DNA of 20,473 nt. It comes from a virus. A program made the position numbers and the translations under genes. Below, piece after piece: positions 125 to 14,275 of this stretch. The stretch is taken from positions 1-20,473 of the IMG/VR virus record IMGVR_UViG_3300025927_000178; one strand, 5' to 3'. The notes under the pieces are model-generated. The model was not told where the DNA came from, ran no database searches, and saw only the letters and a list, made by a program, of their open reading frames with translations. Numbering within the stretch: position 1 is the first letter of the stretch; each line of letters begins with the position of its first letter.

Positions 125-127
125 ACA

Positions 128-144: not shown

Positions 145-149
145 CGGGT

Positions 150-433: not shown

Positions 434-439
434 CGTCTT

Positions 440-452
440 CTCCTTGGGGGGG
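440..452 (-). promoter_or_regulatory. C-run leader box with Shine-Dalgarno AAGGAG
   Basis: On the minus strand this reads C7 followed by AAGGAG, 6 nt before ATG 433. It lies in the short leader (about 30 nt) made from the promoter at 471-499. The same arrangement follows the two other strong promoters of the window. Confidence 0.65.
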
Positions 453-466
453 ATATCCTTCATTGC

Positions 467-482
467 GTCCACTCTAGTGGAC
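467..482 (-). promoter_or_regulatory. Palindromic operator overlapping the -10 box
   Basis: The minus strand reads GTCCACTAGAGTGGAC, with two perfect 7-bp arms around a 2-nt centre. The -10 hexamer TAGAGT lies inside it, so a protein bound here would exclude RNA polymerase. Related sites are at 4663-4678, 11218-11233 and 14243-14258. Confidence 0.65.
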
Positions 483-499
483 AGCGGTGGGTTTGTCAA
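471..499 (-). promoter_or_regulatory. Sigma-70/SigA-type promoter (TTGACA-17-TAGAGT)
   Basis: The -35 TTGACA is at 494-499 and the -10 TAGAGT at 471-476, with exactly 17 nt between. The TGA stop codon of the upstream gene (496-498) lies inside the -35 box, so the promoter is built into the end of that gene. Spacing, sequence and layout match two other promoters in the window. Confidence 0.8.
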
Positions 500-759
500 G
501 TCGGTAGGGGTTCCTGGCCGGGTCGCGGCTGCTGCCGCCTGGCCTGCGACAGCATGCTGATCACCTCGTCGCAGAAATCGTCGCCCATGAACAGGTCGTA
601 CACCTCGACGTCATGCCGGCCGACGAAGATCGACAAGAGCACGCCCTGCGGCGTCGCTGTCACGCCGACGCGGCCGATCAGGTTCGTCCGCTTCACCGGG
701 TCAGGCTGTGGGTGTGGCCGCGCAGCGAGTGCCTCGAGGCGGCGGAGCTCGTTATCCAT
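496..759 (-). CDS. Unknown protein (87 aa) downstream of the GT-B glycosyltransferase
   Basis: The start ATG 759 overlaps the upstream stop by 8 nt and has GGAGG 6 nt upstream. The product begins MDNELRRLEALAARPHPQPDP, continues as a probable beta-rich segment (residues 28-55, including VGVTATPQGVLLSIFVGR) and ends with a short helix and a Gln/Arg/Pro-rich tail. No catalytic motif or membrane segment is visible. It is the last gene of the glycosyltransferase block, and its stop codon lies within the -35 box of the next promoter. Confidence 0.65.
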   Translation of the reverse strand: MDNELRRLEALAARPHPQPDPVKRTNLIGRVGVTATPQGVLLSIFVGRHDVEVYDLFMGDDFCDEVISMLSQARRQQPRPGQEPLPT

Positions 760-1639
760 ACTGGTCCTCCAAGTGGCTAATCAGTGCCTCAGCATCCGCG
801 CCAGTCAAGTCCTCGAGGTAGCTGGCGCGGTGGCGGGCGAGGCGGCTCAGCCGATCGTACTGGCCGAGCGCCAGGTCGATCGCCTCACTCCACGCCTCGG
901 GATACTCACGGTCGGCGTAGACCGCCGCCTCGGCCATGCTCTCCAAGACGCCGTCACAGGGATGGGCCAGGGTGGGGATGCCGCGGCAGGCCGCCTCGAC
1001 CGCAATCCTGCCCCACGACTCCTCCCGACTCGGCAACAAGAGCAGCTTCGTGCCGGTCAACGCGATCCGCACGTCCGGCTGGAACTCCCACACCGTCAGG
1101 TTGTCGTAGCGGCCGGGCTTGTACGCCTGCTCGTCCCACGCACCACGGACGCCCAGGAAGTCCAGATCGGGTCGTAGCCGCACCAGCTGCTCCAAGACGC
1201 GGACGCCCTTCAGCTGAGACAGGTTGACCAGCGTCATCGCGCTGCCCCGCCGGCCGTCATACCGCTGAGTGGGAACGTGCGGACGCAACAGCAGCGAGCC
1301 CGGCCGCGTCCGCTGCACGTGCAGGCTGTTGGCGATCGGCCGGGCCGTCCGTGGCGGGTGCTGCGAGGGCGAGTGCAATAGCCAGTAGAGAGCGGCCTTG
1401 GCCCGCTCGGCCAGCAGCACCTCGGCGTGGCCAGTGCCCAGGTGGCCGATCACGACGTCCGCCGTCTTCGCGTGGAGGACGACGTCGACGCCCTCGAACT
1501 GGTACGCCGTCCGCAACCGGTGATGCCAGAAACGCACGCTATGACCGCGTCGTATGCAGGCGAGGAGGAACTCGTGGGCCATCCACTCGGCACCACCGCC
1601 GACCGGCGGGTAGAGGTTCCCCGACCAGACGATCCTCAC
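752..1639 (-). CDS. GT-B (GT4-like) glycosyltransferase, 295 aa
   Basis: Probably transfers a sugar from an activated donor onto a glycan or protein. The N-terminus MRIVWSGNLYPPVGGGAEWM is the typical GT-B opening with a Gly-rich loop (residues 10-20). The C-terminal half has the donor-site motif EESWGRIAVEAACRGIP (206-222), matching the E-x7-E pattern of family GT4, followed by a 'v.ES' region near 231-234. At 295 aa it is short for GT4 (usually 350-400), with a compact acceptor domain. The GTG start at 1639 has AGGAGG upstream and overlaps the previous stop by 1 nt; the longer frame to 1900 would cover two small genes. It lies in one operon with a GT-A-like protein and a SAM methyltransferase, which fits phage-encoded glycan modification. 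Substrate unknown. Confidence 0.85.
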   Translation of the reverse strand: MRIVWSGNLYPPVGGGAEWMAHEFLLACIRRGHSVRFWHHRLRTAYQFEGVDVVLHAKTADVVIGHLGTGHAEVLLAERAKAALYWLLHSPSQHPPRTARPIANSLHVQRTRPGSLLLRPHVPTQRYDGRRGSAMTLVNLSQLKGVRVLEQLVRLRPDLDFLGVRGAWDEQAYKPGRYDNLTVWEFQPDVRIALTGTKLLLLPSREESWGRIAVEAACRGIPTLAHPCDGVLESMAEAAVYADREYPEAWSEAIDLALGQYDRLSRLARHRASYLEDLTGADAEALISHLEDQYG

Positions 1640-1842
1640 TACTCCTCCTCGACTGGCGTCTCGGACGAGAAGTTCGGAACCAAGGCGAGCACTGACAGGA
1701 TCGTGACGTAGAGCACTTCGCTGCCGAAGAACACCGCGCCGATCGCCGCCAAGAGCAGCGTCCAGAAGCCGAACGCTCGCCGATCCCGGCTGGTGAAGCG
1801 CTTGACCAGGTAGTCCGGCGGACCGTAGATGATGCGCTTCAG
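1639..1842 (-). CDS. Small membrane protein, probable CTG start (67 aa)
   Basis: The product has a basic N-terminal segment (KRIIYGPPDYLVKRF) and two closely spaced hydrophobic stretches around residues 24-55 (FGFWTLLLAAIGAVFF and VLYVTILSVLALV), then an acidic tail ending EEE. It is probably an inner-membrane protein. The best start is an unusual CTG at 1842: GGAGG lies 7 nt upstream and CTG overlaps the previous stop as CTGA, like the ATGA and GTGA junctions elsewhere. The alternative ATG at 1878 would give 79 aa and overlap the previous gene by 40 nt. Its 3' end overlaps the glycosyltransferase start by 1 nt. Confidence 0.6.
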   Translation of the reverse strand: MKRIIYGPPDYLVKRFTSRDRRAFGFWTLLLAAIGAVFFGSEVLYVTILSVLALVPNFSSETPVEEE

Positions 1843-1961
1843 TCGAGTGCCTCCCAGCCGACCAGGAAGACCAGCCACAGGCCGTGCGCCACGTACCCAC
1901 CGATCAACGCCCCCGCCAAGGTCAGGCCGCCCAATACGATCGCGTTGACGACTGCCTTCAC
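1839..1961 (-). CDS. Small two-helix membrane protein (40 aa)
   Basis: A GTG start at 1961 overlaps the upstream stop as GTGA. The product is almost entirely hydrophobic: a first helix around residues 4-24 with Gly pairs (VLGGLTLAGALIGGYV) and a second around 28-35 (GLWLVFLVG), ending WEALD. It could be a holin-like or accessory membrane peptide, but there is no lysis gene beside it. It lies between glycosyltransferase genes, so a role in membrane-bound glycan transfer is equally possible. Confidence 0.6.
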   Translation of the reverse strand: MKAVVNAIVLGGLTLAGALIGGYVAHGLWLVFLVGWEALD

Positions 1962-2128
1962 GGCACCGGCAGCCTTCGCAGCTCGTCGGCGCAGCACAGC
2001 ATCGCCTCGGCGACCAGCAGCATCGCCTGGGCCTGCGTCCGTTGCAAGCGCTCAGCGGTCATCGCTTCCTCGTCCAGATAGTCCAGCAGGTTCTCGCATT
2101 CCTCCGAAATCTCGTCGATCGTTCTCAT
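1958..2128 (-). CDS. Small helical protein (56 aa), unknown
   Basis: The start ATG 2128 has GGAGG 5 nt upstream and overlaps the previous stop as ATGA; an earlier in-frame ATG at 2140 is less well placed. The product (MRTIDEISEECENLLDYLDE...) looks all-helical and acidic in its first half, with Cys at residue 11 and a CC pair near 46-47. No family recognised. It sits between the GT-A-like gene and two membrane peptides. Confidence 0.6.
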   Translation of the reverse strand: MRTIDEISEECENLLDYLDEEAMTAERLQRTQAQAMLLVAEAMLCCADELRRLPVP

Positions 2129-2748
2129 ACCAGCCTCCATTCGGTTGGTGCCCGCTCAGCCAGGTGCGTCCGCTGGCGGTACGGGTGAGGGCGTCGCTGC
2201 CCGTTCAGGATGCTGGCCATAGCCTCGTCGTGGTCGCAGATCGACGGCGAGCAGACCCGCAGCTCGAGCTCCTGCTCGGCCATCCAGCAGCCGATCACAT
2301 CGTCGTCGTAGCGAGCATCCGGATGGCACCGCCACTGGTGATCCAGCAGGCTGGTGATCAACTCGCAGGGCAGGGCGAGGGCGACCGTCGGAGGCCAGTG
2401 ATACTCAACCGACAGGGGAACCAGCGTGCCCCACCCGGCGCGCTTGTGCAGGGTCGCCTCGGGCAACCACGGCCGCATCCAGAACGCGACAGCCGCGCCC
2501 TCCGCCACCTCGACCGCCGCCCTCGCCGAGGTGATGAATCCGGTGGCGGGGAGGGCGTCGTCCTGGATCACGAGGTGGTACCCGGTGGAGCCGTGTTCGG
2601 CCCAGGCCAGCATCGCCGCCTGCAGGTTGCCCGCCGTGCGCGTCCGGTCGACCATCACCGACGGATGCAGGCTCAGCAAACGACCGGCCAGGGCGACGGC
2701 TCGGGCCTGCCGCTGGGGGTGGCTGAGGATCGTGCAGCTCAGGTTCAC
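2125..2748 (-). CDS. GT-A-like glycosyltransferase (207 aa)
   Basis: Probably a nucleotide-sugar-dependent glycosyltransferase. The chain starts with a short beta-strand (LSCTILSHP). Around residues 57-66 it has a hydrophobic strand ending in an acidic triplet, YHLVIQDDALP, which resembles the DxD metal/sugar-nucleotide motif of GT-A enzymes (as in GT2 and GT25). A second acidic stretch, ARYDDDVIGCW, follows around 162-172 and could hold the catalytic base region. The GTG start at 2748 overlaps the upstream methyltransferase stop as GTGA; the longer frame to 2916 lies inside the methyltransferase gene. It is shorter than most GT2 enzymes. Family membership is inferred from fold motifs, not strong identity. 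Confidence 0.6.
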   Translation of the reverse strand: MNLSCTILSHPQRQARAVALAGRLLSLHPSVMVDRTRTAGNLQAAMLAWAEHGSTGYHLVIQDDALPATGFITSARAAVEVAEGAAVAFWMRPWLPEATLHKRAGWGTLVPLSVEYHWPPTVALALPCELITSLLDHQWRCHPDARYDDDVIGCWMAEQELELRVCSPSICDHDEAMASILNGQRRPHPYRQRTHLAERAPTEWRLV

Positions 2749-3257
2749 CGGCCGGGTACCGCCACCAGCATCACGTCCTCCTCCAGCATCCGCACCTTCG
2801 TCATCCGGTTGAAGTCCTGCGGCCCCCAGATCGAGCGGTGCCGCTCCGTCGGCCAGCCATTGTCGGCCTCCGGATTCTGGAACCAGACGGATGGTGTGGT
2901 GATCACCACCGGGCATGTGATCCGCGCTAAGACCTCGTGGCCGTCGGCCTTGGTCAGGTGCTCGATCACGTCGGCGAACAGGCAGACGTCATACGGGTCG
3001 AAGAACTCGCTGGGCATGTCGCGGACGTCGCCGAGCTGCACCCAGTCGTAGACCTCCCACAGGACGGGCGTCAGGTAGCGGCCTTCCGCCTCGATCGCAT
3101 CCAGCCGTCGCAGGCCGTGCAGATACTCCCGAGCCAGAAGGCCGTACTTACCGTACCCCGGCCCGACATCCAGCATCGAGAAACTGCCCTTACCAGCGAC
3201 CGCCTCCTGCAAGGCCAGAATCACCGGCAAGGCGGCGGACAACTTACTGGTCGGCAC
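2745..3257 (-). CDS. SAM-dependent class I methyltransferase (170 aa)
   Basis: Motif I (MLDVGPGYGKYGLL, residues 28-41) is the Gly-rich SAM-binding loop of Rossmann methyltransferases. An acidic residue in DAIEAEG (53-59) would bind the ribose, and FADVIEHLTK (94-103) matches the post-II/motif IV segment of UbiE/sugar-type methyltransferases. No DPPY motif is present, so it is unlikely to be a DNA amino-methyltransferase. Lying directly before the GT-A-like gene, it may methylate the same glycan or lipid. The start is GTG 3257 without a clear ribosome binding site. Confidence 0.8.
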   Translation of the reverse strand: MPTSKLSAALPVILALQEAVAGKGSFSMLDVGPGYGKYGLLAREYLHGLRRLDAIEAEGRYLTPVLWEVYDWVQLGDVRDMPSEFFDPYDVCLFADVIEHLTKADGHEVLARITCPVVITTPSVWFQNPEADNGWPTERHRSIWGPQDFNRMTKVRMLEEDVMLVAVPGR

Positions 3258-3266
3258 GCCAGGCGG

Positions 3267-3458
3267 TCAGGTTGCGGAGCCGGGCGCGGAGATGCGCTGC
3301 CCGTGCCCGGGGCTGCGGCACACGCCGGCCGCGTCCAGCGGGTAGTGACACGTCGGGCATGGTCGGGGTGGTGGCTGCGCTTTGATTCGTGGCTGCTGGC
3401 TGCGGAACAGGCTCATCCCTTGGAGGGCGTCGCGTGTTGTCTCGGTCGGCTCGGCCAC
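3267..3458 (-). CDS. Small zinc-ribbon-like protein (63 aa), uncertain frame and start
   Basis: This frame contains CPTCHYPLDAAGVCRSPGH (residues 34-52), a CxxC followed by Cys and His at zinc-ribbon spacing. That is the reason I prefer it. The start could be GTG 3458 or ATG 3416 (MSLFRSQQ); neither has a well-spaced ribosome binding site. A competing frame, GTG 3468 to stop at 3244, has a better GAGGAG and a 14-nt overlap with the methyltransferase gene, but encodes a low-complexity Arg/Pro/Ala-rich chain without motifs. Only one is probably real. Confidence 0.5.
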   Translation of the reverse strand: MAEPTETTRDALQGMSLFRSQQPRIKAQPPPRPCPTCHYPLDAAGVCRSPGHGQRISAPGSAT

Positions 3459-3512
3459 GGCCCGTCACCGTACGCTCCTCGTCGGATGGCCTCTCGGGCT
3501 GCCTGCTAGCAC

Positions 3513-4292
3513 TCACCGGATCACACCCGCCTTCCTCAGCTGCGCATCCAGCACGGACTGGTCCCAGGTGTTCCAGAAGTCGGCATGCGCCGAGTTCAGC
3601 GGGCCCGAGGAGAGCCGGAAGCCGGTGGCGCTGGAGCGGTTCCACTCGAAGCTGACGCGGATGTGCGGGATCGCGATGTAGCCGGCTGGGCAGATGTTCC
3701 CCTTCGGGCCGTAGACGAAGCTGCTGCGGCCGACGCCGTTCCCCGACCAGCAGTTGGGGAAGCGCACGGTGGTCTGGAGCTCCTCACCGCGGGGACAGGT
3801 GATCGGCACCGGCGAAATGGGGACGGACGGGTCGGCGAGGCAGTCCCACTTGACGCGGTCGACGCCCTGCGGCTGGGTCGCGCTTGAGCTGCCGCCGATC
3901 ATCTGCGCGCCGGCGGGGACGGTGTGGACATAGCCTTTGCCGGGCTTGGTGGAGTAGTAGGCGACGGCCTGGCGGAGCTGGTAGGGCTGCCCGCTGGGTG
4001 TGATTGGGGCGGGGAACCAGTACCCGGCGGTGTCACCGGCCAGCTTGCACGTCGTCCCACCGTTCCGCATCGAGGAAAGCGTCGAGTTCGCGTTGGTGGT
4101 CGTGTTGCCGAAGAACTGGTGGAGATGACTCGCGCCGGATTGGCCGGGGAAGACGATCGGGTCGTCGGATCGCTGGTGGGAGAAGTTGCAGGGGACGCGG
4201 AGGACGCCGGCGGCGTAGGCCGGTGAGGAGCAGAGGGCGAGCAGGATGAGGCTGAGCACGAACGCGGTGATCGTGGCGTACCGGGTGATCAT
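3513..4292 (-). CDS. Secreted DUF1996-family protein (259 aa)
   Basis: A signal peptide covers residues 1-27 (hydrophobic core ITAFVLSLILLALCSS, probable cut after AYA). The mature part has the DUF1996 pattern: RVPCNFSHQRSDDPIV near its start, SHLHQFFGN (55-63), a YWFPA segment, FPNCWSG around residue 180, a CPAGYIAIPHIRVSFEW stretch and HADFWNTWDQ near the C-terminus. Several Cys could form disulfides. DUF1996 proteins are secreted and occur in actinobacteria and fungi; I know of no defined biochemical role. ATG 4292 was chosen because GGGAGG lies 4 nt upstream. A secreted non-virion type protein between TerL and the glycosyltransferases is unusual for a phage. Confidence 0.8.
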   Translation of the reverse strand: MITRYATITAFVLSLILLALCSSPAYAAGVLRVPCNFSHQRSDDPIVFPGQSGASHLHQFFGNTTTNANSTLSSMRNGGTTCKLAGDTAGYWFPAPITPSGQPYQLRQAVAYYSTKPGKGYVHTVPAGAQMIGGSSSATQPQGVDRVKWDCLADPSVPISPVPITCPRGEELQTTVRFPNCWSGNGVGRSSFVYGPKGNICPAGYIAIPHIRVSFEWNRSSATGFRLSSGPLNSAHADFWNTWDQSVLDAQLRKAGVIR

Positions 4293-4339
4293 CTGGCCTC
4301 CCATGGTTGGACTCTGTCGCAGGCTAGCGAGAGCGTGGG

Positions 4340-4495
4340 CTAGGGCTTCGCCGCCTTGGCTTTGACCGGGTACTGGCGGTGCGGATCGTCGATCTGACTC
4401 GCACTGATCAAGACCGGCACGAGGATCAGGGTGGCGACGAGGATGACGAGGGCGATGAACTCGAGGGTGAGTCGTGCTGGGCTAGGTAGGTTCAT
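4340..4495 (-). CDS. Single-pass small membrane protein (51 aa)
   Basis: ATG 4495 overlaps the end of the ribbon-helix-helix gene by 14 nt. The product has one strong membrane segment, FIALVILVATLILVPVLI (residues 13-30), then a short polar, basic tail (DDPHRQYPVKAKAAKP). No family recognised. It immediately precedes the secreted DUF1996 gene. Confidence 0.65.
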   Translation of the reverse strand: MNLPSPARLTLEFIALVILVATLILVPVLISASQIDDPHRQYPVKAKAAKP

Positions 4496-4646
4496 CGGCT
4501 GCTTTGCGGATGATCTGCTGGGCGCGGGGGACGCAGCACAGCACGACGTAGCGGGTCATGCTCAGCCCCTTGATCTCCGCGGCGCGGCGGATCGTGTCGT
4601 ACTCCTCGACGCTGATCGAGACGTTCAACTGCTGACGCGGAGCCAC
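4482..4646 (-). CDS. Ribbon-helix-helix (Arc/CopG-type) protein, 54 aa, possible repressor
   Basis: The product starts with a short beta-strand, QQLNVSISVEEYDTIRRAAE, then a second helix, GLSMTRYVVLCCV. That is the strand-helix-helix plan of ribbon-helix-helix DNA-binding proteins, which bind palindromes as dimers of dimers through the strand. The GTG start at 4646 is the only sensible one; GGGGAG is nearly adjacent to it, too close for a normal ribosome binding site, so the mRNA may be leaderless. A palindrome of the GTCCA/TGGAC type lies 16 bp upstream (4663-4678), which makes the protein a candidate autoregulator and, by inference, the regulator of the three similar promoters. Binding is not shown. 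Confidence 0.7.
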   Translation of the reverse strand: MAPRQQLNVSISVEEYDTIRRAAEIKGLSMTRYVVLCCVPRAQQIIRKAADEPT

Positions 4647-4652
4647 TCCCCG

Positions 4653-4682
4653 AGGCTACCCTGTCCACTAGACGGGACGCAA
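4653..4682 (-). promoter_or_regulatory. Weak candidate promoter of the ribbon-helix-helix gene
   Basis: TTGCGT (4677-4682) and TAGCCT (4653-4658) are separated by 18 nt and would give a leaderless transcript starting close to GTG 4646. The match to consensus is modest. Its interest is that the palindrome at 4663-4678 fills the spacer. Confidence 0.3.
4663..4678 (+). promoter_or_regulatory. Fourth palindromic operator, inverted orientation
   Basis: The plus strand reads GTCCACTAGACGGGAC. It differs from the 14243-14258 site by one base, but is in the opposite orientation and has no TTGACA at the proper distance. It lies between the end of TerL and the ribbon-helix-helix gene. It could be an autoregulatory operator or a promoterless silencing site like the stoperators of cluster A mycobacteriophages. 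Confidence 0.6.
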
Positions 4683-4683
4683 G

Positions 4684-6018
4684 CTAGGCGTCGAGTCGCA
4701 GCGTGTCATCCGCCTCATAGACGACAGCCGGCGACGACCCCGCCAGGTACTCATGCGCCGAGCTCGACGTGTCGACCTGGTCGTCGTGCGCGCCCTCCGG
4801 GAACTGGCTCAACTCGTCGATATAACTGATCGTCCAGTCCGCCTCGACGATCCTGACCAGGCCGTTGCCGAGCATCGCCGAATAGGGGACGGCTCGTTGC
4901 TGCTTGCTGCCGGTTGGTCGGATCGCTTGGACGGCGTACTGCTGCAGGTTCCGCTGGATATGCCGCGTCGTCATCTTCCCGCTGCTGCCGCCCTCCTCCT
5001 CCACCCGCTGCACGATCCCCGGCCCATCCGCCGTCGCGGTGAGGCGCATCAGGCGGTCGACGTCGTCGGGTTGTAACTGGTCGCGGACGACGTTCCGGAT
5101 CACCATCACGCCGGTCTGACTATTCCAGTCGGCCCGCAGGCCGACCGTGTAGTCGGGGTCGTGCTCGCCGCCGCTGGGCGCCGTCGCCGCCAAATCCCAC
5201 GCCCGCACGCTCGTATCCCCCTCGGGGTAGGCGGCGGGGACGAGGCTTTGCAGCATCGCTTCGCGTTGGAACATCGAGCCCTGACTGGACACGTCCCAGT
5301 CGCCCTGCTCGAGCTGGCTGCGGATCAACGGGTGGAGTTTCGCGAGGCCTTCGCGGTAGGAGGTGACGTCGAGGCCGGGGTTGTCGGTCATCACCGCCCG
5401 CACGTAGCCGGTGCCTGGTTCGCGAGTCTGCGGGTCGATGAAGCGGCGTTTCACCCAGTCATGCCCCGGCCCGCCCGGATTGCTGGCGGCGCGCATCCGT
5501 AAGGGGACTTTCACGTCGCCGGCGCGACGGAGCCTGGAGAAGAGGTAGCGGTACATCTTCTCGGTGAACTGGGTCAGCTCGTCGAAGCCGATGTACTGGT
5601 ACTCCTGGCCGAGGTAGCGGTAGATGTCCTGCTCGTTCTGGACGTGTCCGAACGTGATCGTCGCACCGCTGGGGAAGCGCCACTGCGAATGCCCCGCCGA
5701 CCATCGAGCGTCTGATCCGCTGAGCCAGTCAAGGCTCATCGGGATCAGGCCGCCCGGCATCGACAGCTGCGGATACGTCCGCCGCAGGAGCAGGGCGGCG
5801 TAGCCGGGCTGGTCGGCGTACATCAACGACGCCTCGAGGAGCGCGGTGGATTTGCCGGGGCCAGCGCTGCCGCCGAAGAACACCTCGAGCTGCGGCATCC
5901 GCAGGAATGCTTCCTGCCGCTCCGACGGTGGGAACGGCGCGTGATACGGCCGGCGGAGCGCGCCGCCGAGGGCGACGAGGAGGTCGCGGCGGCGTGCGTT
6001 GGCTTTACGGAGAGCCAT
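4684..6018 (-). CDS. terL: Terminase large subunit (444 aa)
   Basis: The DNA-packaging motor: an ATPase that pumps the genome into the prohead and a nuclease that cuts the concatemer. Walker A is GGSAGPGKST (49-58), Walker B YIGFDELTQ (142-150), and the coupling motif RAASNPGG follows at 176-183. The RNase H-like nuclease half has AWDLA with D275, an EEEGG segment (340-344) and AHDDQVD with D412/D413/D416 as likely metal ligands. The length is normal for a compact TerL. ATG 6018 overlaps the TerS-like stop by 14 nt. No portal gene follows in the window; the next 4.6 kb hold envelope and glycan genes instead. Confidence 0.95.
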   Translation of the reverse strand: MALRKANARRRDLLVALGGALRRPYHAPFPPSERQEAFLRMPQLEVFFGGSAGPGKSTALLEASLMYADQPGYAALLLRRTYPQLSMPGGLIPMSLDWLSGSDARWSAGHSQWRFPSGATITFGHVQNEQDIYRYLGQEYQYIGFDELTQFTEKMYRYLFSRLRRAGDVKVPLRMRAASNPGGPGHDWVKRRFIDPQTREPGTGYVRAVMTDNPGLDVTSYREGLAKLHPLIRSQLEQGDWDVSSQGSMFQREAMLQSLVPAAYPEGDTSVRAWDLAATAPSGGEHDPDYTVGLRADWNSQTGVMVIRNVVRDQLQPDDVDRLMRLTATADGPGIVQRVEEEGGSSGKMTTRHIQRNLQQYAVQAIRPTGSKQQRAVPYSAMLGNGLVRIVEADWTISYIDELSQFPEGAHDDQVDTSSSAHEYLAGSSPAVVYEADDTLRLDA

Positions 6019-6484
6019 TTGGCGAGGCGCCGGAGGATTCGGCGATGATCTGCGCGACCGCCTCCAGCCGGGCGAGGCCGTCGTCTAGCTCGCCTTCGAC
6101 TTTGATCTCGCCGCCGAGTTGGATGGCTGCTTCGTCGCGCCAGTTCTCTTTGAATCCGCGGCGGAGGATCTCGATGGCTGCGCGCCAGTCCGCGTTCTCG
6201 CCTGTGCCCGCCCGTACGACGCTAGTGACGAGTCGGACTTCGGCTTGGGCTCTGGCTTCCATGACCGCCTCTACGAACTCGACGTAGATCCGTTCGCCTT
6301 CTGGTACCGGGGTTTCGTGTTCTTCGGCGCGTGCTATGGCGTCTTTGCCGCGGGCGAGCCATTTCCATCCGGCGGCTCGGCTGATGCCGGCGTATTCGCA
6401 GGCGACGTGGAAGAAGTTCCCGACCTGGATGGCTTGGATGATCTTCTCTTGGAGTTCGGGCGTGAGGGCGCGGGGTCTAGCCAT
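6005..6484 (-). CDS. Terminase small subunit-like HTH protein (159 aa)
   Basis: Probably recognises the packaging site and loads TerL. The N-terminal part has an HTH, VGNFFHVACEYAGISRAAGWKWLARG (residues 21-46), of the kind found in phage small terminases and some transposase-like proteins. A helical middle (AEVRLVTSVVRAGTGENADWRAAIEILRR) and an acidic C-terminus follow, as in oligomerisation and TerL-contact regions. ATG 6484 (MARPRALTPELQ) overlaps the upstream stop by 8 nt; the longer frame to 6646 is a Pro/Ser-rich shadow of the ParB-like gene. Its position directly before TerL is the strongest support. Confidence 0.8.
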   Translation of the reverse strand: MARPRALTPELQEKIIQAIQVGNFFHVACEYAGISRAAGWKWLARGKDAIARAEEHETPVPEGERIYVEFVEAVMEARAQAEVRLVTSVVRAGTGENADWRAAIEILRRGFKENWRDEAAIQLGGEIKVEGELDDGLARLEAVAQIIAESSGASPNGSP

Positions 6485-7105: not shown

Positions 7106-7123
7106 TTTGTCAAACTATCACCC

Positions 7124-8021: not shown

Positions 8022-8253
8022 CCGACTGGTTGGGATCGTTGTTCGTCCAGCGCACCGGCTGGCGCTGCGGCACGTACCCGTTGCGGCGTAGCCACGAGCG
8101 GAGGTGCGAGTCGGACACCTCGAGGTGGCGGGCGATCGCGTCGATCCGCTCGCCCTGGTTGATCCGCCCGATCACGTCCTCCGCGTACGTCGGGGTCTGC
8201 CCATCATCGAGCAGGATGAACTTCCGCTCCTCCAACCTCGTCCTCGGTGCCAT
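8014..8253 (-). CDS. Helix-turn-helix protein (79 aa)
   Basis: The HTH lies at GERIDAIARHLEVSDSHLRS (residues 34-53), followed by WLRRNGYVPQRQ, a layout like transposase-type or Mor/RepA-like HTH domains. ATG 8253 has AGGAGG 5 nt upstream. It is the first gene after an intergenic hairpin, so it may open a transcription unit that continues into the packaging genes. I see no good promoter in the short gap. Confidence 0.75.
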   Translation of the reverse strand: MAPRTRLEERKFILLDDGQTPTYAEDVIGRINQGERIDAIARHLEVSDSHLRSWLRRNGYVPQRQPVRWTNNDPNQSDE

Positions 8254-8278
8254 CGCTTCCTCCTCGAAGTATCACCCA

Positions 8279-8301
8279 GCGGGCAGTTGGAGGCTGCCCG
8301 C
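8279..8301 (-). terminator. Intergenic hairpin, possible terminator without U-tract
   Basis: A perfect 8-bp GC-rich stem (GCGGGCAG/CTGCCCGC) with a 7-nt loop lies in the 61-bp gap after the gene ending at 8315. No U-run follows. In GC-rich actinobacterial genomes such U-less hairpins may terminate, but this is uncertain. Confidence 0.5.
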
Positions 8302-8314
8302 CGGGGTTCTGGGG

Positions 8315-8548
8315 TCAGACTGCAGGGTTCAGGAGTTGTGCGCAGTCGTGGTCGTTGGGGCACATCAGCCACGTCTCGACCAGCGCGTCATTCGCGAAGT
8401 CGAGGATCGTCGTCTGCCCCTCGTGATAGTCGACGCGCCCCTTGATGATCCGGCCCTGCTCATCCACCGCCACATCCACTAGGTAGACACGGACGACCGC
8501 CTCGAGGGGGAGGCCACAGACTGGGCAAGTAGCGATGCTCTGGCTCAT
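8315..8548 (-). CDS. Small zinc-binding-type protein (77 aa)
   Basis: ATG 8548 has CAGGAG 5 nt upstream and overlaps the previous stop as ATGA. The product has CPVCGLPL near the N-terminus (8-15) and CPNDHDCAQLL near the C-terminus, which together could bind one zinc. The middle part (VRVYLVDVAVDEQGRIIKGRVDYHEG) looks like beta-hairpins. Function unknown. The upstream junction contains one copy of a 16-bp repeat encoding SHDQE. Confidence 0.7.
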   Translation of the reverse strand: MSQSIATCPVCGLPLEAVVRVYLVDVAVDEQGRIIKGRVDYHEGQTTILDFANDALVETWLMCPNDHDCAQLLNPAV

Positions 8549-9108
8549 GGCTGCTCCTGGTCGTGGGAAGGCAACGAGCGTGACCGCCACGTCGCCGCGT
8601 AACACTCCTGCGAGCAGTACCAGAGCGGAGTCGGCTTCGCATCGTCGCTGACCGCGCCCTCATCCTGCGACCCGAAGTTCGTGCCGCAGACGGGGCACCG
8701 CATCGGCTTCAAGCGACCATGTGGTTGCTCCGGGCCGTGATACTCGCCGCACACAACGCACGCCGGGGCGTGGAACGAATCACTCGTAGGCTGCTCTAGG
8801 TCATTGGTCGCCCGCCGGGGAAGCCCAGCGCCAGTCAGCGGCTCCTGGTCGTGGGAGTGAACCTCGTCCAACCACTTCCGCGCCGCCTCCCGCCACTCAT
8901 CCGACTGGTGAGGCCACGCCTCCTCGGGCGCATCCACGTTGCTGATGATCCCGATGGCCCAGCCGATCAGGTGGTCGTGTGCGGTGTCGTCACTCATCTG
9001 CGTGCTCCTAGCTTTGGAGGATGGATGCACCAGTACGTATAGGACGCCCGCCCCAACGACGGCGCTGACCACGAGCAGGGAGATGAGCCAGCCCAGCGCG
9101 TCAGGCAT
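8545..9108 (-). CDS. Composite small-domain protein with membrane helix and zinc fingers (187 aa)
   Basis: Three different segments are joined in one frame. Residues 1-37 contain a membrane helix (LGWLISLLVVSAVVGAGVLYVLV). Residues 38 to about 91 (MSDDTAHDHLIGWAIG...) form a helical acidic domain ending SHDQEP. The rest holds CVVCG, CPVCG and a final CSQEC, as in zinc ribbons, ending SHDQEQP. ATG 9108 overlaps the previous stop by 8 nt. An internal AGGAG-ATG (8997) could start a shorter soluble form. The segment borders look like former gene junctions: ribosome-binding-site-like sequences with start and stop lost (see findings). Function unknown. Confidence 0.65.
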   Translation of the reverse strand: MPDALGWLISLLVVSAVVGAGVLYVLVHPSSKARSTQMSDDTAHDHLIGWAIGIISNVDAPEEAWPHQSDEWREAARKWLDEVHSHDQEPLTGAGLPRRATNDLEQPTSDSFHAPACVVCGEYHGPEQPHGRLKPMRCPVCGTNFGSQDEGAVSDDAKPTPLWYCSQECYAATWRSRSLPSHDQEQP

Positions 9109-9400
9109 CGTCTGCGGCCTCCCCTGGGCGTAGGTCGTCGAGCAGCGGCCCGATGCTTAGATTCGGCGGCGCGCTGGGGGTTGCTGGCCCGCCCGAATAC
9201 TCGACACGTTCCGAAACGCCCGTCGTCACGTCGATCTCGAAGACGATGTCGCCGTCCCAGTCCCACTCGGCGTACTCCTCGACGGCCAGTTTGATTCGCC
9301 GAAGAAGGTGTGCCCAGCGGAAGTCGGTGACGGGTTCGCCGTTGCGGTGCTTAGGCCACTGGATACGGAGCGTCATCTCGCTGTCACGGATCTCAGTCAT
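9101..9400 (-). CDS. Unknown protein (99 aa)
   Basis: ATG 9400 has CAGGAG 8 nt upstream, supplied by a 16-bp repeat. The product begins MTEIRDSEMTLRIQWPKHRN, has a helical part with aromatic and acidic residues (LAVEEYAEWDWDGDIVFEID) and a Pro-rich C-terminus. No family recognised. It ends by overlapping the composite gene start by 8 nt. Confidence 0.6.
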   Translation of the reverse strand: MTEIRDSEMTLRIQWPKHRNGEPVTDFRWAHLLRRIKLAVEEYAEWDWDGDIVFEIDVTTGVSERVEYSGGPATPSAPPNLSIGPLLDDLRPGEAADDA

Positions 9401-9675
9401 CGGGTGTGCTCCTGGTCGTGGGAGGGCTCGCCCAGCATCCTGAGCATCAGCCCGATGATCTCGTTCGGCAGGCTGCACCCGTTCAACAGCGGCGAGCAGT
9501 CCGGCATGTGATGGACGGGGCAGACGATCCGCGTCTGCTCGACGTGTTGGCGGGTGACGCTGAGAGCAGCATCCACGGCGATCCGCTCGATGTCCTTGAC
9601 GCTCAGGGCACGATGCCGCGCCTCTCCATCGGTCGCCTCACGCGCCTGCCGGATCGCCTCGTCGCGGAGCGTCAC
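9397..9675 (-). CDS. Unknown protein (92 aa) with Cys/His motif
   Basis: The GTG start at 9675 overlaps the secreted deacetylase-like gene's stop as GTGA. The N-terminal half is helical and charged (MTLRDEAIRQAREATDGEAR). A CPVHHMPDCSPLLNGC segment (residues 52-67) could bind a metal. The C-terminus ends SHDQEHTR, encoded by the first copy of the SHDQE repeat. Function unknown. Confidence 0.6.
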   Translation of the reverse strand: MTLRDEAIRQAREATDGEARHRALSVKDIERIAVDAALSVTRQHVEQTRIVCPVHHMPDCSPLLNGCSLPNEIIGLMLRMLGEPSHDQEHTR

Positions 9676-10541
9676 CGTGCCCTACCCCACGCGGTGGCGA
9701 CGGTCGCCGGGTCGGTGGTCGGGATCGTGATCTGGTCGAGCAGGGTGAGCCAGTCGGCGTAGCAGTAGGTCTCGGTCTTCCACGTCCAGTGCTCAGCGAC
9801 GGGGCCGGTGCAGTTCCACTTGCCGACGGCTGAGCCGACGACGAACCGGTAGAACTGGACGACCCGCCACTGCCCGGCTCGAGGATGCGTGTACGGCGCG
9901 ATCTCCGAGGGCGGGCTGTACTTCTGCGGCCCTGGCCCGTTGAAGGTCGCCGAGTCGCCGCCTCGCAGCTGCTTGACGTACGCGAAGCCGTTCGCCCCCG
10001 GCTGGACGTTGACGGCGTTGGCGTAGTCGCGGCCGAACGAGAAGCAGTCCAAGACGGTCGCCTGGGTGTGCGCGTTGAACTGGTCGTTCGGGTAGGAGAA
10101 CATGCCCCACGCCCGGTTGAACCCATGCGCCGTGAACAGCGGCAGGCTGCCGCACGTCTCGTCCCGCAGCTGGACGTCGCTAGCCGTCGTCAGGATCAGC
10201 TTCGTCTTCCCATTGCTCGTGGCTTCCCAGCCGTACTGGGTATGCCAGGCGCGGAGCTCGTCCCAGCTGGGGTAGAGGGCGGGGTTAGCGCAGCGGTGCG
10301 TCGACTCGTTGATGAACTTCGTGACGACGCCGAACGTCCCAGTCAGGCCACGAGCGTCCATGTCGGCGATTACCGTGCCCAGCGGCACCGAGCCGGGGAG
10401 TGGCGTCTTGGTCGTGCAGTCCGCCTCCGCCAACTGGGCGCGATCGGCGAACAGGGTCAGGTAGGGCGGCGTCGCCGCCCCGGCGGATGCTGGCCAGATG
10501 AGTCCGGCCACGAGCAGGAGGAGTAATCCGAGCTTCTTCAT
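9672..10541 (-). CDS. Secreted polysaccharide-deacetylase-like (NodB-type) protein, 289 aa
   Basis: A clear signal peptide (MKKLGLLLLLVAGLIWPASAGA, residues 1-22) precedes a domain that resembles secreted actinobacterial polysaccharide deacetylases. YLTLFAD (27-33) stands where the first catalytic Asp strand would be, GTVIADMDARGLTGTFGVVTKFI (55-77) matches the 'll...g..aTfFv' part, and PSWDELRAWHTQYGWEATSNG (91-111) matches the helix before the usual HSxxH. Here the place of HSxxH is SNGKTK, so the metal-binding His pair seems missing. Six or more Cys suggest disulfides. It may be a catalytically inactive glycan-binding relative. ATG 10541 has AAGGGAG 5 nt upstream. Confidence 0.7.
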   Translation of the reverse strand: MKKLGLLLLLVAGLIWPASAGAATPPYLTLFADRAQLAEADCTTKTPLPGSVPLGTVIADMDARGLTGTFGVVTKFINESTHRCANPALYPSWDELRAWHTQYGWEATSNGKTKLILTTASDVQLRDETCGSLPLFTAHGFNRAWGMFSYPNDQFNAHTQATVLDCFSFGRDYANAVNVQPGANGFAYVKQLRGGDSATFNGPGPQKYSPPSEIAPYTHPRAGQWRVVQFYRFVVGSAVGKWNCTGPVAEHWTWKTETYCYADWLTLLDQITIPTTDPATVATAWGRAR

Positions 10542-10565
10542 CGTTCTCCCTTGGTTGGTTGGGGG

Positions 10566-10922
10566 TCAGGCTGGTGGCTGGCAGCGACGCAGCGCCCGGA
10601 GCGCGGCCCGTGCGTCGCCGTCCAGCTTCCAGCCACGCTCCACCATCGTGGCGAGCAGTGTCTGGTAGTCGTCGTCGCCCATGCCCGGCACGTTCTCGGC
10701 CAGCCACAGGTCGGTGATCCGGTTCGGCATCGTCATCATCATGTTCCTCCCTGGTTCGCGCTCGACCCATCGGCAGAGCGGATTCTCACAAGCCCCGGCG
10801 CGTTGGCTGCGGCAGTAGCAGGCTGGGCAGATCCCGAGGCCCTGCCCGCGCCGCCGCGCATCATCCTCAACCTCGACCTGGAGCCGGAACTCGTTCACGA
10901 CGTACTCGTTGTAGAGGCCCAT
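10566..10922 (-). CDS. Zinc-cysteine protein with internal start signal (118 aa, maybe two products)
   Basis: ATG 10922 shares one base with the previous stop (TGATG). The first half (MGLYNEYVVNEFRLQVEVED) leads to a Cys cluster, CPACYC and CENPLC, of zinc-finger type. The second half, MMMTMPNRITDLWLAENVPG, is preceded in frame by a very good GGGAGG at 3-nt spacing from ATG 10742, so a separate 58-aa protein may be made. The two halves look like two small genes whose dividing stop codon is absent. Unknown function. Confidence 0.6.
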   Translation of the reverse strand: MGLYNEYVVNEFRLQVEVEDDARRRGQGLGICPACYCRSQRAGACENPLCRWVEREPGRNMMMTMPNRITDLWLAENVPGMGDDDYQTLLATMVERGWKLDGDARAALRALRRCQPPA

Positions 10923-11188
10923 CAGTCCCAGCCTCGGCAGCCGCAGTAGTAGCGGTCGGGGTGGCGCGGCCCGATCGGCTGGAAGTCCTCGCAGACGAAC
11001 CGCGAGCCGGGCCGGTAATACTCGCCGCCCTCGTGCGCGATGATGTTGTACCGGCAGTGCTTGCACGTCTCCCGCGCCTCGCGGCTGTCCGGGCCGAGGT
11101 ACTCGAAGCCGAACAACTCGCGGCTGCTCGGCGCCTCCTGGCCGCATGAGCAGCGAGCCACGCGGCCGGCCAGGCTGGGGTCACTCAT
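10922..11188 (-). CDS. Small Cys-rich zinc-binding-type protein (88 aa), first gene of promoter-led unit
   Basis: ATG 11188 has AAGGAGG 6 nt upstream, joined to a C-run. The product contains CSCGQ (13-17), CKHCR (42-46), a single Cys in FVCEDF and a terminal YYCGCRGWD, enough ligands for two zinc sites. The middle, FGFEYLGPDSREARETCKHCRYNIIAHEGG, resembles small zinc-ribbon proteins common in actinophages. Function unknown. It leads the unit that includes the deacetylase-like secreted protein. Confidence 0.75.
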   Translation of the reverse strand: MSDPSLAGRVARCSCGQEAPSSRELFGFEYLGPDSREARETCKHCRYNIIAHEGGEYYRPGSRFVCEDFQPIGPRHPDRYYCGCRGWD

Positions 11189-11194
11189 CTGGTT

Positions 11195-11207
11195 CCTCCT
11201 TGGGGGG
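11195..11207 (-). promoter_or_regulatory. C-run leader box with Shine-Dalgarno AAGGAGG
   Basis: Six C followed by AAGGAGG on the minus strand, in the short leader between promoter 11222-11250 and ATG 11188. Same layout as 440-452 and 14218-14230. Confidence 0.65.
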
Positions 11208-11217
11208 AGATCATCCC

Positions 11218-11233
11218 GTCCATACTAGTGGAC
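11218..11233 (-). promoter_or_regulatory. Palindromic operator overlapping the -10 box
   Basis: The minus strand reads GTCCACTAGTATGGAC. The outer 5-bp arms GTCCA/TGGAC are perfect, and the -10 TAGTAT lies inside. Same class as 467-482 and 14243-14258. Confidence 0.65.
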
Positions 11234-11250
11234 GAAGGGGTAGGTGTCAA
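11222..11250 (-). promoter_or_regulatory. Sigma-70/SigA-type promoter (TTGACA-17-TAGTAT)
   Basis: TTGACA at 11245-11250 and TAGTAT at 11222-11227 with a 17-nt spacer. It drives the zinc-protein and deacetylase-like unit. The spacer ends in GTCCAC, as in the other two strong promoters. Confidence 0.8.
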
Positions 11251-11339
11251 CCTGGAGCGCCGACGGGCCGCACCAGTTTCCTGGGAACGGCCCGCCGGTT
11301 CCATTCCCCCCAAGGGAACGAGATCACAGCCTAGCAATC

Positions 11340-11921
11340 CTACGCCAGGCCGCACGTCCCCGCCGTCGACCACGGCGACCAGCCATAGCTCGAGTAGAGG
11401 CTCCACGCCATGTCCAGCTGCGCACCCAGCGGCACGTTCAGCCAGGAGTCGCCGTAGGTCGCGGCGATCGTCGGCCCCGGGTCCTGGTACTGGCTGGGCG
11501 CGTAGATATACCCGAAGTAGCCAGCAGACGTGTTCGGCCCGTCCATGCCGTACTCCTCGTGGATGCTGATGCAGCTCATCGCGCCGATGAACCAGGACGG
11601 CAATGAGCCGCCCGGCTGGTCACGCTCCTGCACGTAGCGGGCGTGCGCCTGGGCGGCGTTCCCCCACCAGATCGCTGCGATGTGCCACCGCTTCCAGGTG
11701 GGCGTGGAGTGCTGGTGCGCGACCCAGTGGTAGGGCTTGCAGCAGAAGCCGCCCAGTGATTGCCAGTGGTGCGTCATCCGCACCGCGTGGTTCACCGACT
11801 TGAGGGAGTCGGGGGTCTCGGGCCTAGCCGTGGCGGTTGCCGGCCAGGCGAGGGCGGCTACAAGGGCCGCGAGTATGAGATACCGGATTGCATCGTCCTC
11901 CTCTTTCGCTTCGCCCCGCAC
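11340..11921 (-). CDS. Secreted Rpf/transglycosylase-like peptidoglycan hydrolase, uncertain start (193 aa)
   Basis: The C-terminal domain, MSCISIHEEYGMDGPNTS then AGYFGYIY, LGAQLDMAWSLYSSYGWSPW and TCGL, resembles the resuscitation-promoting-factor/lytic transglycosylase fold: Glu in 'CI..HE', a GYFG strand, a Q-containing helix and the 'G...W' end. The likely catalytic Glu is residue 122 or 123. Residues about 12-33 (IRYLILAALVAALAWPATATA) form a secretion signal. The start is doubtful. The best ribosome binding site (AGGAGG) precedes ATG 11893, but that ATG is out of frame by one base and gives a 10-codon ORF. The nearest in-frame start is GTG 11921, without a ribosome binding site and with an acidic n-region. 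A 1-nt indel at the start is possible. Confidence 0.7.
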   Translation of the reverse strand: MRGEAKEEDDAIRYLILAALVAALAWPATATARPETPDSLKSVNHAVRMTHHWQSLGGFCCKPYHWVAHQHSTPTWKRWHIAAIWWGNAAQAHARYVQERDQPGGSLPSWFIGAMSCISIHEEYGMDGPNTSAGYFGYIYAPSQYQDPGPTIAATYGDSWLNVPLGAQLDMAWSLYSSYGWSPWSTAGTCGLA

Positions 11922-11987
11922 GGTGCGGGACTCGGTTCGGCACCGATAGGTCGATCTACGGTGCAGGTCGCCGCCCGACGGTGCGGG
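11920..11987. repeat. Three copies of a 10-bp repeat, ACGGTGC(G/A)GG
   Basis: Direct copies on the plus strand lie at 11920-11929, 11958-11967 and 11978-11987, with start distances of 38 and 20 bp. They fill the short interval between the DPPY methyltransferase and the Rpf-like gene. They may be a protein-binding array or by-products of the two hairpins that use the same words. Confidence 0.5.
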
Positions 11988-11990
11988 CGG
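11971..11990 (-). terminator. Hairpin right after the DPPY methyltransferase gene
   Basis: A perfect 7-bp all-GC stem (CCGCCCG/CGGGCGG) with a 6-nt loop begins 5 nt after the methyltransferase stop. No U-tract follows. It may be a terminator or processing site that separates methyltransferase and Rpf-like expression. Confidence 0.5.
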
Positions 11991-11995
11991 ACGCT

Positions 11996-13324
11996 TCAAA
12001 ACATCTCATCCTCCGCGAACAAGCTCAGCTGCGACAACCGGCCGGCGGCAATCTGGAGGTACTCCACGTCCAGGTCTATCCCCCAGCAGCGGAAGCCCTC
12101 CACCCTCGCCGCAACGGCGGTCGAGCCGCTGCCGATGAACGGGTCGAGGATGACGCCGCCGGGTGGCGTGACGAGGCGGCAGAGCCACCGCATCAGCGCG
12201 ACGGGCTTCACGGTCGGATGATGGTTCTGCGCGACCTGCTTGCCGCTCGCCGCCGTTCGTCCTGGCGCGACGTTTTCCCCGCCGCTCATCTTGAACGCCT
12301 CGCGCTCGGGTAGGTGGTGGAGGCCGGTGTTCCGCTCCGCACGACTCGCCTTCGCCGTATAGAAGAACCGGCTCGCGCCGCCCCGGTCGCCGAAGGCGGC
12401 TACGTTCTCGCCTCGCGCCTTCTCGCCCCACCCTTCGCCGCCGTGACCGGCTTGTACCGAAGTTTTGCGGGTGTACTCGCTCGCTGGGCTGAGCGTCCCG
12501 GTTTGCGCGTCGAGCATGGCGGCGGCGGTCTCGTCGAGCGCGACGTTCGCCGGCCACCGCCCCGCCGCATGGGAACCGCTGCGCTTCGTCCAGTTGCCAG
12601 CCCAACCATCAGCGTCATCCGGGCCATACCCGTTACGCCCGTCGTACGGCCGATCATCCGCCCGCCACGCCTCTTCGGTGCCGATGCGGCACGCGTCGAT
12701 GTTCAGCGCGCCCACGCCATGCGCCAGGACGTTCGCGGCGACGGTACCGCGGAGCGGCTTCCGCGCGAGGATGACGGGTTCGTACGCTGGTTTGAGCGCG
12801 GTACCCCAGCCTTGCCACCGCTCCGCGTCCGGCGTCGCAGGCGCGGTCAGCGGTTGGACGTTCACCGCGAAGTTCCGAGATTCGCCATCCAGCGAGTACC
12901 CCGGTTGGGACTCTGGTCGTGCGTTGGGGTTCTGGCCGATGACTTCGCGTTCTGCGCCGGCGGCCTTGTCGATCGCTTTCGACACGTCGAGCGATTTGGG
13001 GAAGCCTGAGCCGTAGAGCCAGCAGAGCGTGTCGCGGATCTCGAAGCCAGCGTCCTCAATCGCGCACGTGATCCGGTGCGCCGTCCGCGTCGCGGCGAAT
13101 GCGACCAGGTGAGCTCCCGGCTTGAGGACGTGCAACGCTGCGGCCCACGTCTCGGGGTCGTACGCGACACCAGCGCTATCCCACGTGCGGCCCATGAACG
13201 CGATCTCGTAAGGCGGGTCGCAAACGACCGCGTCGACCGACTCGGCCGGGAGCTCGCGCATCACTTTGACGCAGTCGCCATGGAGGAGGCGGACGTCGCC
13301 ATCGTCGAGGTACGGGTCAGGCAT
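11996..13324 (-). CDS. Beta-class DNA amino-methyltransferase with DPPY (442 aa)
   Basis: Methylates adenine-N6 or cytosine-N4 in DNA. The catalytic motif IV CDPPY is at 35-39, near the N-terminus, and the SAM-binding FxGxG motif is near the C-terminus (DPFIGSGST, 394-402), preceded by HPTVKP at about 369-374. That order is the beta class. A long middle (about 140-340) carries the target-recognition region. The ends PYLDDGDVRLLHGDC and YLQIAAGRLSQLSLFAE are nearly shared with the SPPY enzyme at 15562-16962, so the two are paralogues. No restriction endonuclease is adjacent, which suggests an orphan, anti-restriction role. ATG 13324 overlaps the previous stop by 8 nt. Confidence 0.9.
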   Translation of the reverse strand: MPDPYLDDGDVRLLHGDCVKVMRELPAESVDAVVCDPPYEIAFMGRTWDSAGVAYDPETWAAALHVLKPGAHLVAFAATRTAHRITCAIEDAGFEIRDTLCWLYGSGFPKSLDVSKAIDKAAGAEREVIGQNPNARPESQPGYSLDGESRNFAVNVQPLTAPATPDAERWQGWGTALKPAYEPVILARKPLRGTVAANVLAHGVGALNIDACRIGTEEAWRADDRPYDGRNGYGPDDADGWAGNWTKRSGSHAAGRWPANVALDETAAAMLDAQTGTLSPASEYTRKTSVQAGHGGEGWGEKARGENVAAFGDRGGASRFFYTAKASRAERNTGLHHLPEREAFKMSGGENVAPGRTAASGKQVAQNHHPTVKPVALMRWLCRLVTPPGGVILDPFIGSGSTAVAARVEGFRCWGIDLDVEYLQIAAGRLSQLSLFAEDEMF

Positions 13325-13688
13325 CTGGGCTGCGGACGCTGGCCTGGAAGACGACGACGCCGCCCGGTTCGATGACGACGTCGTGATGCTCGGTCATGTC
13401 CCCGTTCAGGCCTCCCACCGGCCAGTCCCACGCGGCATACCAACCGATGATATGCACCGGCACGGACGACGGGTTCTGCCACGCCAGCTCAACCGGGTCA
13501 CCCCACTGCGTCACCCGGTGCAGCGTCGCGACGGGGTACTGGTCGCCGTCGCCGTTCTCCGCGATCAGCTGCACGGTCGTGTGCGTCCGCCGAGCGGCGC
13601 GTCGAGCAGTCCAGGTGGCGGCGAGGTTGAAGCTGATCGCGACCAGGCACGCGACCATCAGGCCGACCAGGACGATGGTGGTGGTCAT
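13317..13688 (-). CDS. Membrane-anchored protein of unknown function (123 aa)
   Basis: ATG 13688 overlaps the previous stop as ATGA. One N-terminal membrane helix (TTTIVLVGLMVACLVAISFNLAATW, residues 2-26) is followed by an Arg-rich stretch (ARRAARR). The C-terminal part looks beta-rich and ends GGVVVFQASVRSPDA. The positive charges after the helix suggest an inside C-terminus. No family recognised. Confidence 0.65.
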   Translation of the reverse strand: MTTTIVLVGLMVACLVAISFNLAATWTARRAARRTHTTVQLIAENGDGDQYPVATLHRVTQWGDPVELAWQNPSSVPVHIIGWYAAWDWPVGGLNGDMTEHHDVVIEPGGVVVFQASVRSPDA

Positions 13689-13876
13689 GCCACCTCGCGC
13701 CACTGATCGACGCCCTCGGTCAGGCACAGGTACTGGCCGTCGTCAAAGTCAATCCAGACCTGCAGACCGTCGGTGAAGGGCGTCAGGACTACGCCGCTCA
13801 CCGTGCCCTGAAGGCCGGGAGGAAACGGGTCGAAGTCCACGATCTCAACTCGGGTACCTGGCTCCACGATCATCAC
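13685..13876 (-). CDS. Small SH3/KOW-like protein (DUF4314-like), 63 aa
   Basis: The pattern EPGTRVEIVDFDPFPPGLQGTV, then DGLQVWIDFDDGQYLCLTEGVDQW, matches the small beta-barrel DUF4314 type: 'pGtrV.lv..Dp....G..GtV', then an acidic 'V.wDdG..L' strand and 'gvD.w'. These occur widely in actinophages with unknown role. It lies in tandem with a similar small barrel (13873-14073). The start is ATG 13876 or ATG 13873 next to it. Confidence 0.65.
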   Translation of the reverse strand: MMIVEPGTRVEIVDFDPFPPGLQGTVSGVVLTPFTDGLQVWIDFDDGQYLCLTEGVDQWREVA

Positions 13877-14073
13877 TCGTCCGCCTTCCGGTAGACGGTG
13901 ACGTCAGACGGGTCGCACAGGAAACAGCCATGCGTGTCGCAGTCCACCTCGACGGCGCCGTCCGTCGGGCGGATACGGACGACCTGACCGGCCACCCAGC
14001 CTGCGTAGCCGAGCGGCTTGACGCGCACCTTGTCGCCCAGCTGGGGCAGCGTCTCGGTGAATGAGAAGCCCAT
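13873..14073 (-). CDS. Small SH3/KOW-like protein (66 aa)
   Basis: The pattern LGDKVRVKPLGYAGWVAGQVVRI, then DGAVEVDCDTHGCFLCDPSDVTVYRK, suggests a five-strand barrel as in KOW/SH3-like proteins. There are three Cys around residues 45-53. It overlaps its downstream neighbour as ATGA. The two barrels may be diverged tandem duplicates. Confidence 0.65.
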   Translation of the reverse strand: MGFSFTETLPQLGDKVRVKPLGYAGWVAGQVVRIRPTDGAVEVDCDTHGCFLCDPSDVTVYRKADE

Positions 14074-14213
14074 CAGTCGCTCCCTCGTCGCATCCGGTAC
14101 AGGCTAACCCCGACCAGGATCAGCACGAAGCCGGCGAGCAGGAATGTCCACAGGTCGAAGCCGGTGTAGGGCGTCGTGCCACCAGCGTATTCGGAAACAG
14201 CGAACAGGTTCAT
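14073..14213 (-). CDS. Single-pass small membrane protein (46 aa), first gene of promoter-led unit
   Basis: ATG 14213 has AAGGAGG 4 nt upstream, joined to a C-run leader. The product begins MNLFAVSEYAGGTTPYTGFD and has one membrane helix, LWTFLLAGFVLILVGVSLY (21-39), then RMRRGSD. A polar region, helix and Arg tail resemble the C-terminal anchor of Gram-positive cell-wall proteins, but no true LPxTG is present. It ends sharing one base with the next start (TGATG). Confidence 0.7.
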   Translation of the reverse strand: MNLFAVSEYAGGTTPYTGFDLWTFLLAGFVLILVGVSLYRMRRGSD

Positions 14214-14217
14214 CGTT

Positions 14218-14230
14218 CCTCCTTGGGGGG
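14218..14230 (-). promoter_or_regulatory. C-run leader box with Shine-Dalgarno AAGGAGG
   Basis: Six C followed by AAGGAGG on the minus strand, 4 nt before ATG 14213. It lies in the leader made from promoter 14247-14275. Confidence 0.65.
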
Positions 14231-14242
14231 ACTACCTTCTCC

Positions 14243-14258
14243 GTCCAGTCTAGTGGAC
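14243..14258 (-). promoter_or_regulatory. Palindromic operator overlapping the -10 box
   Basis: The minus strand reads GTCCACTAGACTGGAC, with perfect GTCCA/TGGAC arms and the -10 TAGACT inside. It differs from the 4663-4678 site by one base. Confidence 0.65.
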
Positions 14259-14275
14259 GCGGGGTTGGATGTCAA
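14247..14275 (-). promoter_or_regulatory. Sigma-70/SigA-type promoter (TTGACA-17-TAGACT)
   Basis: TTGACA at 14270-14275 and TAGACT at 14247-14252 with a 17-nt spacer. The TAG of the -10 box is also the stop codon of the upstream 287-aa gene. It drives the membrane peptide, SH3-like, methyltransferase and Rpf-like unit. Confidence 0.8.

Follow-up and report, generated by a model that had tools for sequence, protein, structure and literature searches.

A repeated 16-bp near-palindrome as the predicted operator of a phage regulon with candidate ribbon-helix-helix repressors

Four copies of a 16-bp near-palindrome, three of them covering the −10 elements of sigma70-like promoters, are present in virus record IMGVR_UViG_3300025927_000178, whose entire 20,473 bases make up the window analyzed here. 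We consider it reasonably probable, from sequence and gene neighbourhood, that these sites are the operators of one phage-encoded regulon and that the protein binding them is most likely a small phage ribbon-helix-helix (RHH) protein. The record is probably a genome fragment of an uncultivated tailed phage. Its GC content is ~67%, its supported genes lie on the minus strand, and it encodes the large (terL, 4684–6018, minus strand) and small (6005–6646) terminase subunits; GC content and weak homology suggest that the host lineage is probably actinobacterial. For these phages, an unstudied lineage, the sites provide a compact, testable promoter–operator set in which one promoterless site could act as a roadblock. 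Together the sites most likely form a small phage-encoded repressor circuit, adding a further case to a well-known type of switch.

Predicted promoters and the site over their −10 elements

The first-pass annotation had reported three minus-strand sites (471–499, 11222–11250, and 14247–14275) in which TTGACA is followed, after 17 nt, by TAGnnT, and we confirmed this arrangement letter by letter. The −10 hexamers are TAGAGT at promoter 1 (471–499), TAGTAT at promoter 2 (11222–11250), and TAGACT at promoter 3 (14247–14275). Promoters 1 and 3 are packed into the ends of upstream ORFs: the −35 element of promoter 1 overlaps the stop codon (496–498) of ORF 496–759, and the TAG of the promoter 3 −10 element is itself the stop codon of ORF 14250–15113. 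For the pattern TTGAC, 16–20 nt, and TAnnnT we counted 3 occurrences where 0.26 would be expected, a number that no shuffle reached, and an independent promoter scan of positions 1–20000 returned these three as the only sigma70-like promoters.

The three minus-strand units that would start at these promoters have presumptive limits. Their first genes, all on the minus strand, encode a 51-residue protein of no family (unit 1, 278–433), an 88-residue Cys-rich protein (unit 2, 10922–11188), and a 46-residue protein with one likely membrane segment (unit 3, 14073–14213). Directly upstream of promoter 2 stands a GC-rich 39-nt hairpin with no U-tract (11260–11298, minus strand), and the 89-nt gap preceding this promoter has a predicted fold of −49.4 kcal/mol (z −3.5); the hairpin could possibly serve as the terminator of the preceding unit.

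A 16-bp palindrome had also been described over each −10 element. The sequence GTCCACTAGnnTGGAC is present at all three promoters, but its symmetry is only partial, being limited to arms of 5–7 bp around an asymmetric CTAGnn centre. The three minus-strand copies, each covering the −10 element, are operator 1 (467–482, GTCCACTAGAGTGGAC, with 7-bp arms), operator 2 (11218–11233, GTCCACTAGTATGGAC), and operator 3 (14243–14258, GTCCACTAGACTGGAC). The invariant unit of the palindrome is GTCCACTAG, and the other half is variable, reading AGTGGAC, TATGGAC, ACTGGAC, or ACGGGAC. With one mismatch or fewer, GTCCACTAGnnTGGAC occurs four times in the window compared to an expectation of 0.015 per sequence, calculated from 200 first-order Markov sequences, which is far beyond chance. 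The fourth occurrence, at 4663–4678, had been overlooked in the three-site inventory, which gave the correct positions for its three sites.

A weight matrix gave the four sites scores of 26–29 bits and the best match elsewhere in the window a score of 7; because the matrix was trained on the same four sites, the evidence lies in this gap and not in the scores themselves. The low score of the next-best match also indicates that the fragment lacks a series of weaker sites trailing off below these four. The tetranucleotide CTAG is depleted in the DNA of the window (28 seen compared to 62 expected) yet is present in all four sites. The palindrome ends at about the position where the RNA would start, which argues for a DNA element rather than an RNA element. 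Several promoters of the window thus share an operator-like site over the RNA polymerase site, as in phage repressor–operator regulons. The first-pass proposal of a phage regulon with its own repressor is upheld with respect to the shared operator by position, spacing, and statistics; its repressor is plausible, with two RHH candidates.

The fourth site and candidate binding proteins

Operator 4 (4663–4678, plus strand, GTCCACTAGACGGGAC) lies between the terL stop codon (4684), from which it is separated by 5 nt, and an RHH gene, and its orientation is opposite to that of the other three operators. Its 22-nt context is 91% identical to the operator 1 context in reverse-complement orientation, and one arm carries a mismatch. 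Operator 4 has no −35 element: TTGACA was absent 17 nt upstream of its TAG when the sequence was read, and its hexamer, TAGACG, is without the final T kept by the three promoters. The site scores 19 bits above background and keeps CTAG where there is no promoter, so a role in a −10 element cannot explain the tetranucleotide there. Loss of the −10 parts with retention of the GTCCACTAG half would fit recognition of that half by a protein, and the promoterless fourth copy therefore supports the palindrome as a protein-read site.

A phage DNA-binding protein on the operators would probably act as a repressor, denying RNA polymerase access to the −10 element. Three of the operators lie over the −10 elements of host-sigma-type promoters that would start the three minus-strand units, and a dimeric or tetrameric DNA-binding protein on the palindrome would exclude RNA polymerase and shut the promoter. 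Operator 4 is placed within a unit, after terL and before the RHH gene, and could be a roadblock, at which bound protein would block elongation and autoregulate the downstream gene or genes.

Two RHH proteins are encoded in the window, as would be anticipated for an Arc/Mnt-like regulon. One has 54 residues (4482–4646, minus strand) and matches Pfam TacA1 at 33.8 bits (cut-off 21); the other has 57 residues (6932–7105, minus strand) and matches Pfam Antitox_RHH, with weak Arc-like and omega-like matches. Operator 4 stands 17 nt from the GTG start (4646) of the 54-residue RHH gene. Because a block at operator 4 would act on elongation into this gene, its product would be the natural first candidate, as an autoregulated repressor. 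No GNAT-like toxin gene was seen adjoining it, and the next gene (4340–4495) looks like one for a membrane peptide; we infer from this neighbour that the 54-residue protein probably serves in regulation and is less likely to be an antitoxin. Judged from sequence, the operator-binding repressor is most likely to be found by taking the protein of 4482–4646 as first and that of 6932–7105 as second candidate. The window also encodes other possible DNA-binding proteins (8014–8253; 7680–8021, by eye only), and among the two RHH and two other possible binders no sequence rule assigns the operator.

A further counterpoint to an RHH regulon is that the true regulator may be encoded outside the 20-kb fragment, either as an immunity repressor like cI or that of cluster A or as a hijacked host regulator, with the RHH genes being unrelated. 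This alternative is a serious one, although we rate it as unlikely: RHH proteins are common in phages, and neither an integrase nor a cI-like gene was found among the scanned proteins of this linear fragment, but operator 4 directly adjoins an RHH gene. For a host regulator in particular, a slightly looser form of the module had just 4 matches in the genomes of 84,980 species, in unrelated bacteria and at about the chance number, and a widespread host regulon is therefore unlikely.

It is much less probable that the palindrome binds an activator, or a phage factor that binds RNA polymerase, and thereby boosts transcription from the promoters during a particular stage. The −10 elements are off consensus (TAGnnT), and help could thus be needed, but TTGACA with 17-nt spacing is strong alone, the site covers the −10 element, where bound proteins normally repress, and the fourth copy has no promoter to activate. 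We give hardly any weight to an explanation with no regulator, in which the three copies would stem from recent duplication of a promoter cassette, with the palindrome as a by-product: the 44-nt repeat surrounding the sites is 61–80% alike, but all 14 specified bases of the palindrome remain intact despite divergence of the spacers that separate it from the −35 element, and one copy has no promoter.

Comparison with known systems and relatives

Cluster A mycobacteriophages (L5, Bxb1, TipsytheTRex) carry 20–30 asymmetric 13-bp sites oriented with transcription, and their repressor is a 183-residue monomer with two DNA-binding domains (PMC9283540, PMC6550527). The window resembles these phages in having one site sequence at promoters and in short intergenic gaps, with a possible roadblock where there is no promoter. 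Its sites, however, are not asymmetric 13-bp sequences oriented with transcription but four near-palindromic 16-bp sequences, three over −10 elements and one reversed. The count of 4 applies to a 20-kb fragment, that of 20–30 to a whole cluster A genome. No L5-type repressor gene was found among the scanned proteins of the window, the record being a fragment. The earlier contrast with cluster A was fair, as both sequence and layout differ. More speculatively, a small RHH protein instead of a two-domain cluster A repressor might run a combined operator/roadblock network, shutting the three promoters at their −10 elements and halting elongation at the promoterless site within the terminase unit so as to control its own gene; we regard this extended proposal as doubtful, and if it is true, the stoperator principle would have arisen independently here.

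In cluster K phages, the SAS element is GGGATAGGAGCCC at starts, and the ESAS consists of paired 17-bp repeats with a variable spacer (PMC3203893). A repeated element before start codons, with an upstream inverted repeat at a subset, is common to cluster K and the window. The start element of the window is CCCCCCAAGGAR, however, and its inverted repeat is a single 16-bp palindrome tied to the −10 element; starts marked by GGGATAGGAGCCC, some of them preceded by 17-bp inverted repeats, were not what we found.

Arc and Mnt of Salmonella phage P22 are small RHH repressors with palindromic operators overlapping promoters. Mnt reads GTCCAC half-sites, which offers a possible lead towards an RHH binder. 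The operator spacing of this type of repressor, 13 bp, differs from the 16 bp of the sites described here.

Two Alphaproteobacteria have TTGACA and GTCCAnTAnnnTGGAC over the −10 element before ArsR-like genes (L039, 7120–7151; L040, 7627–7658), one of which is followed by an arsenate-reductase-like ORF; these gene names were read from the sequence itself. GTCCAnTAnnnTGGAC is probably the autoregulatory operator of the ArsR-like genes. Such ars promoters have the same geometry as the phage promoters and offer a cellular precedent for a palindrome over the −10 element, but they are cellular, and no ArsR-like protein was found in the phage window.

The collections searched yielded no close relative. 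Searches of viral contigs for the exact module with three patterns gave no match, nor did a megablast comparison of the whole window with 50,697 phages. TerL and Rad52, searched as single proteins, returned no relative; among viral contigs, the closest TerL shares 49% identity. The Cys-rich protein of unit 2 has 37 relatives in viral contigs and one, at 43.7%, in Actinomycetia phage DSL-LC01. The gene for this protein is preceded by a different repeated promoter, ATTCTAAAGnTGTTATAATnGAATC, in DSL-LC01 and three contigs, and in most other relatives its start is unclear or it has a position inside an operon. The ATTCTAAAGnTGTTATAATnGAATC cassette occurs in 18 copies in DSL-LC01 (L047, OQ999401.1) and also in the records behind L134, L135, and L138. 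Most copies in DSL-LC01 have an inverted repeat, GATTC..GAATC, around the −10 element, and a CGACGAAAGGA leader stands upstream of many small genes of this phage. These modules and those of related contigs are like the ones in the window in having an inverted repeat around the −10 element, a short leader, small genes, and a homologue of the unit 2 gene, but they differ in sequence and copy number and have no TTGACA. Three GC-rich contigs (L016, L024/L037, and L032) carry TGTTGACACCC...GTAnnGTT promoters at 11–13 copies per contig. Some of these promoters have the −35 element covered by the palindrome GGTGTTGACACC and leaders containing CCCCAAGGAG. As read from these records, promoter–palindrome–leader cassettes are known in kind and private in sequence. 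Sequence alone is enough to find cassettes of this type, each with its own sequence in unrelated phages, and predictions of regulons and immunity groups for uncultivated phages could be based on them.

Start elements and other genes of the window

A C-run joined to AAGGAG had been treated as the leader of the module. This element does follow all three promoters, at 440–452 before the 51-residue gene (278–433), at 11196–11207 before gene 10922–11188, and at 14219–14230 before gene 14073–14213, but two of the five copies of the C-run/AAGGA element, at 113–124 (ATG at 102) and 18681–18691 (ATG at 18669), stand without an adjacent promoter or operator, and the leader is for this reason ruled out as a defining part of the module. 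All five copies of C6–7 AAGGA in the window (0.09 expected) lie on the minus strand just upstream of starts, and C-run/AAGGA is thus a separate, independently recurring start element. The distance from AAGGAG to the start codon, given as 4–6 nt in the first-pass annotation, measured 6, 7, and 5 nt in units 1, 2, and 3, respectively. An RNA hairpin in the leaders was rejected, as folding was no better than for shuffles and the RNA is expected to start only downstream of the palindrome. C-runs adjoining AAGGAG were also seen behind the promoters of other phages, in a search that required CCCC and thus gives no measure of frequency.

A second repeated start element, CCCACGACCAGGAGC, occurs three times on the minus strand (8552–8572, 8840–8860, and 9407–9427), and two of these copies are placed at gene junctions, where one gene ends and another begins (8548 and 9400).

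Three proteins of the window have apparent signal peptides (3513–4292, 9672–10541, and 18208–18669), the first of which contains a DUF1996 domain (106 bits). Two N4/N6 DNA methylases (11996–13324 and 15562–17016) share RLSQLSLFAE at their C-termini, in which QLSLF resembles a beta-clamp binding motif. A short ORF (17633–17821) has a methylase-like start, YLDDGDA, and an unrelated sequence afterwards, and is perhaps the remnant of a third methylase.
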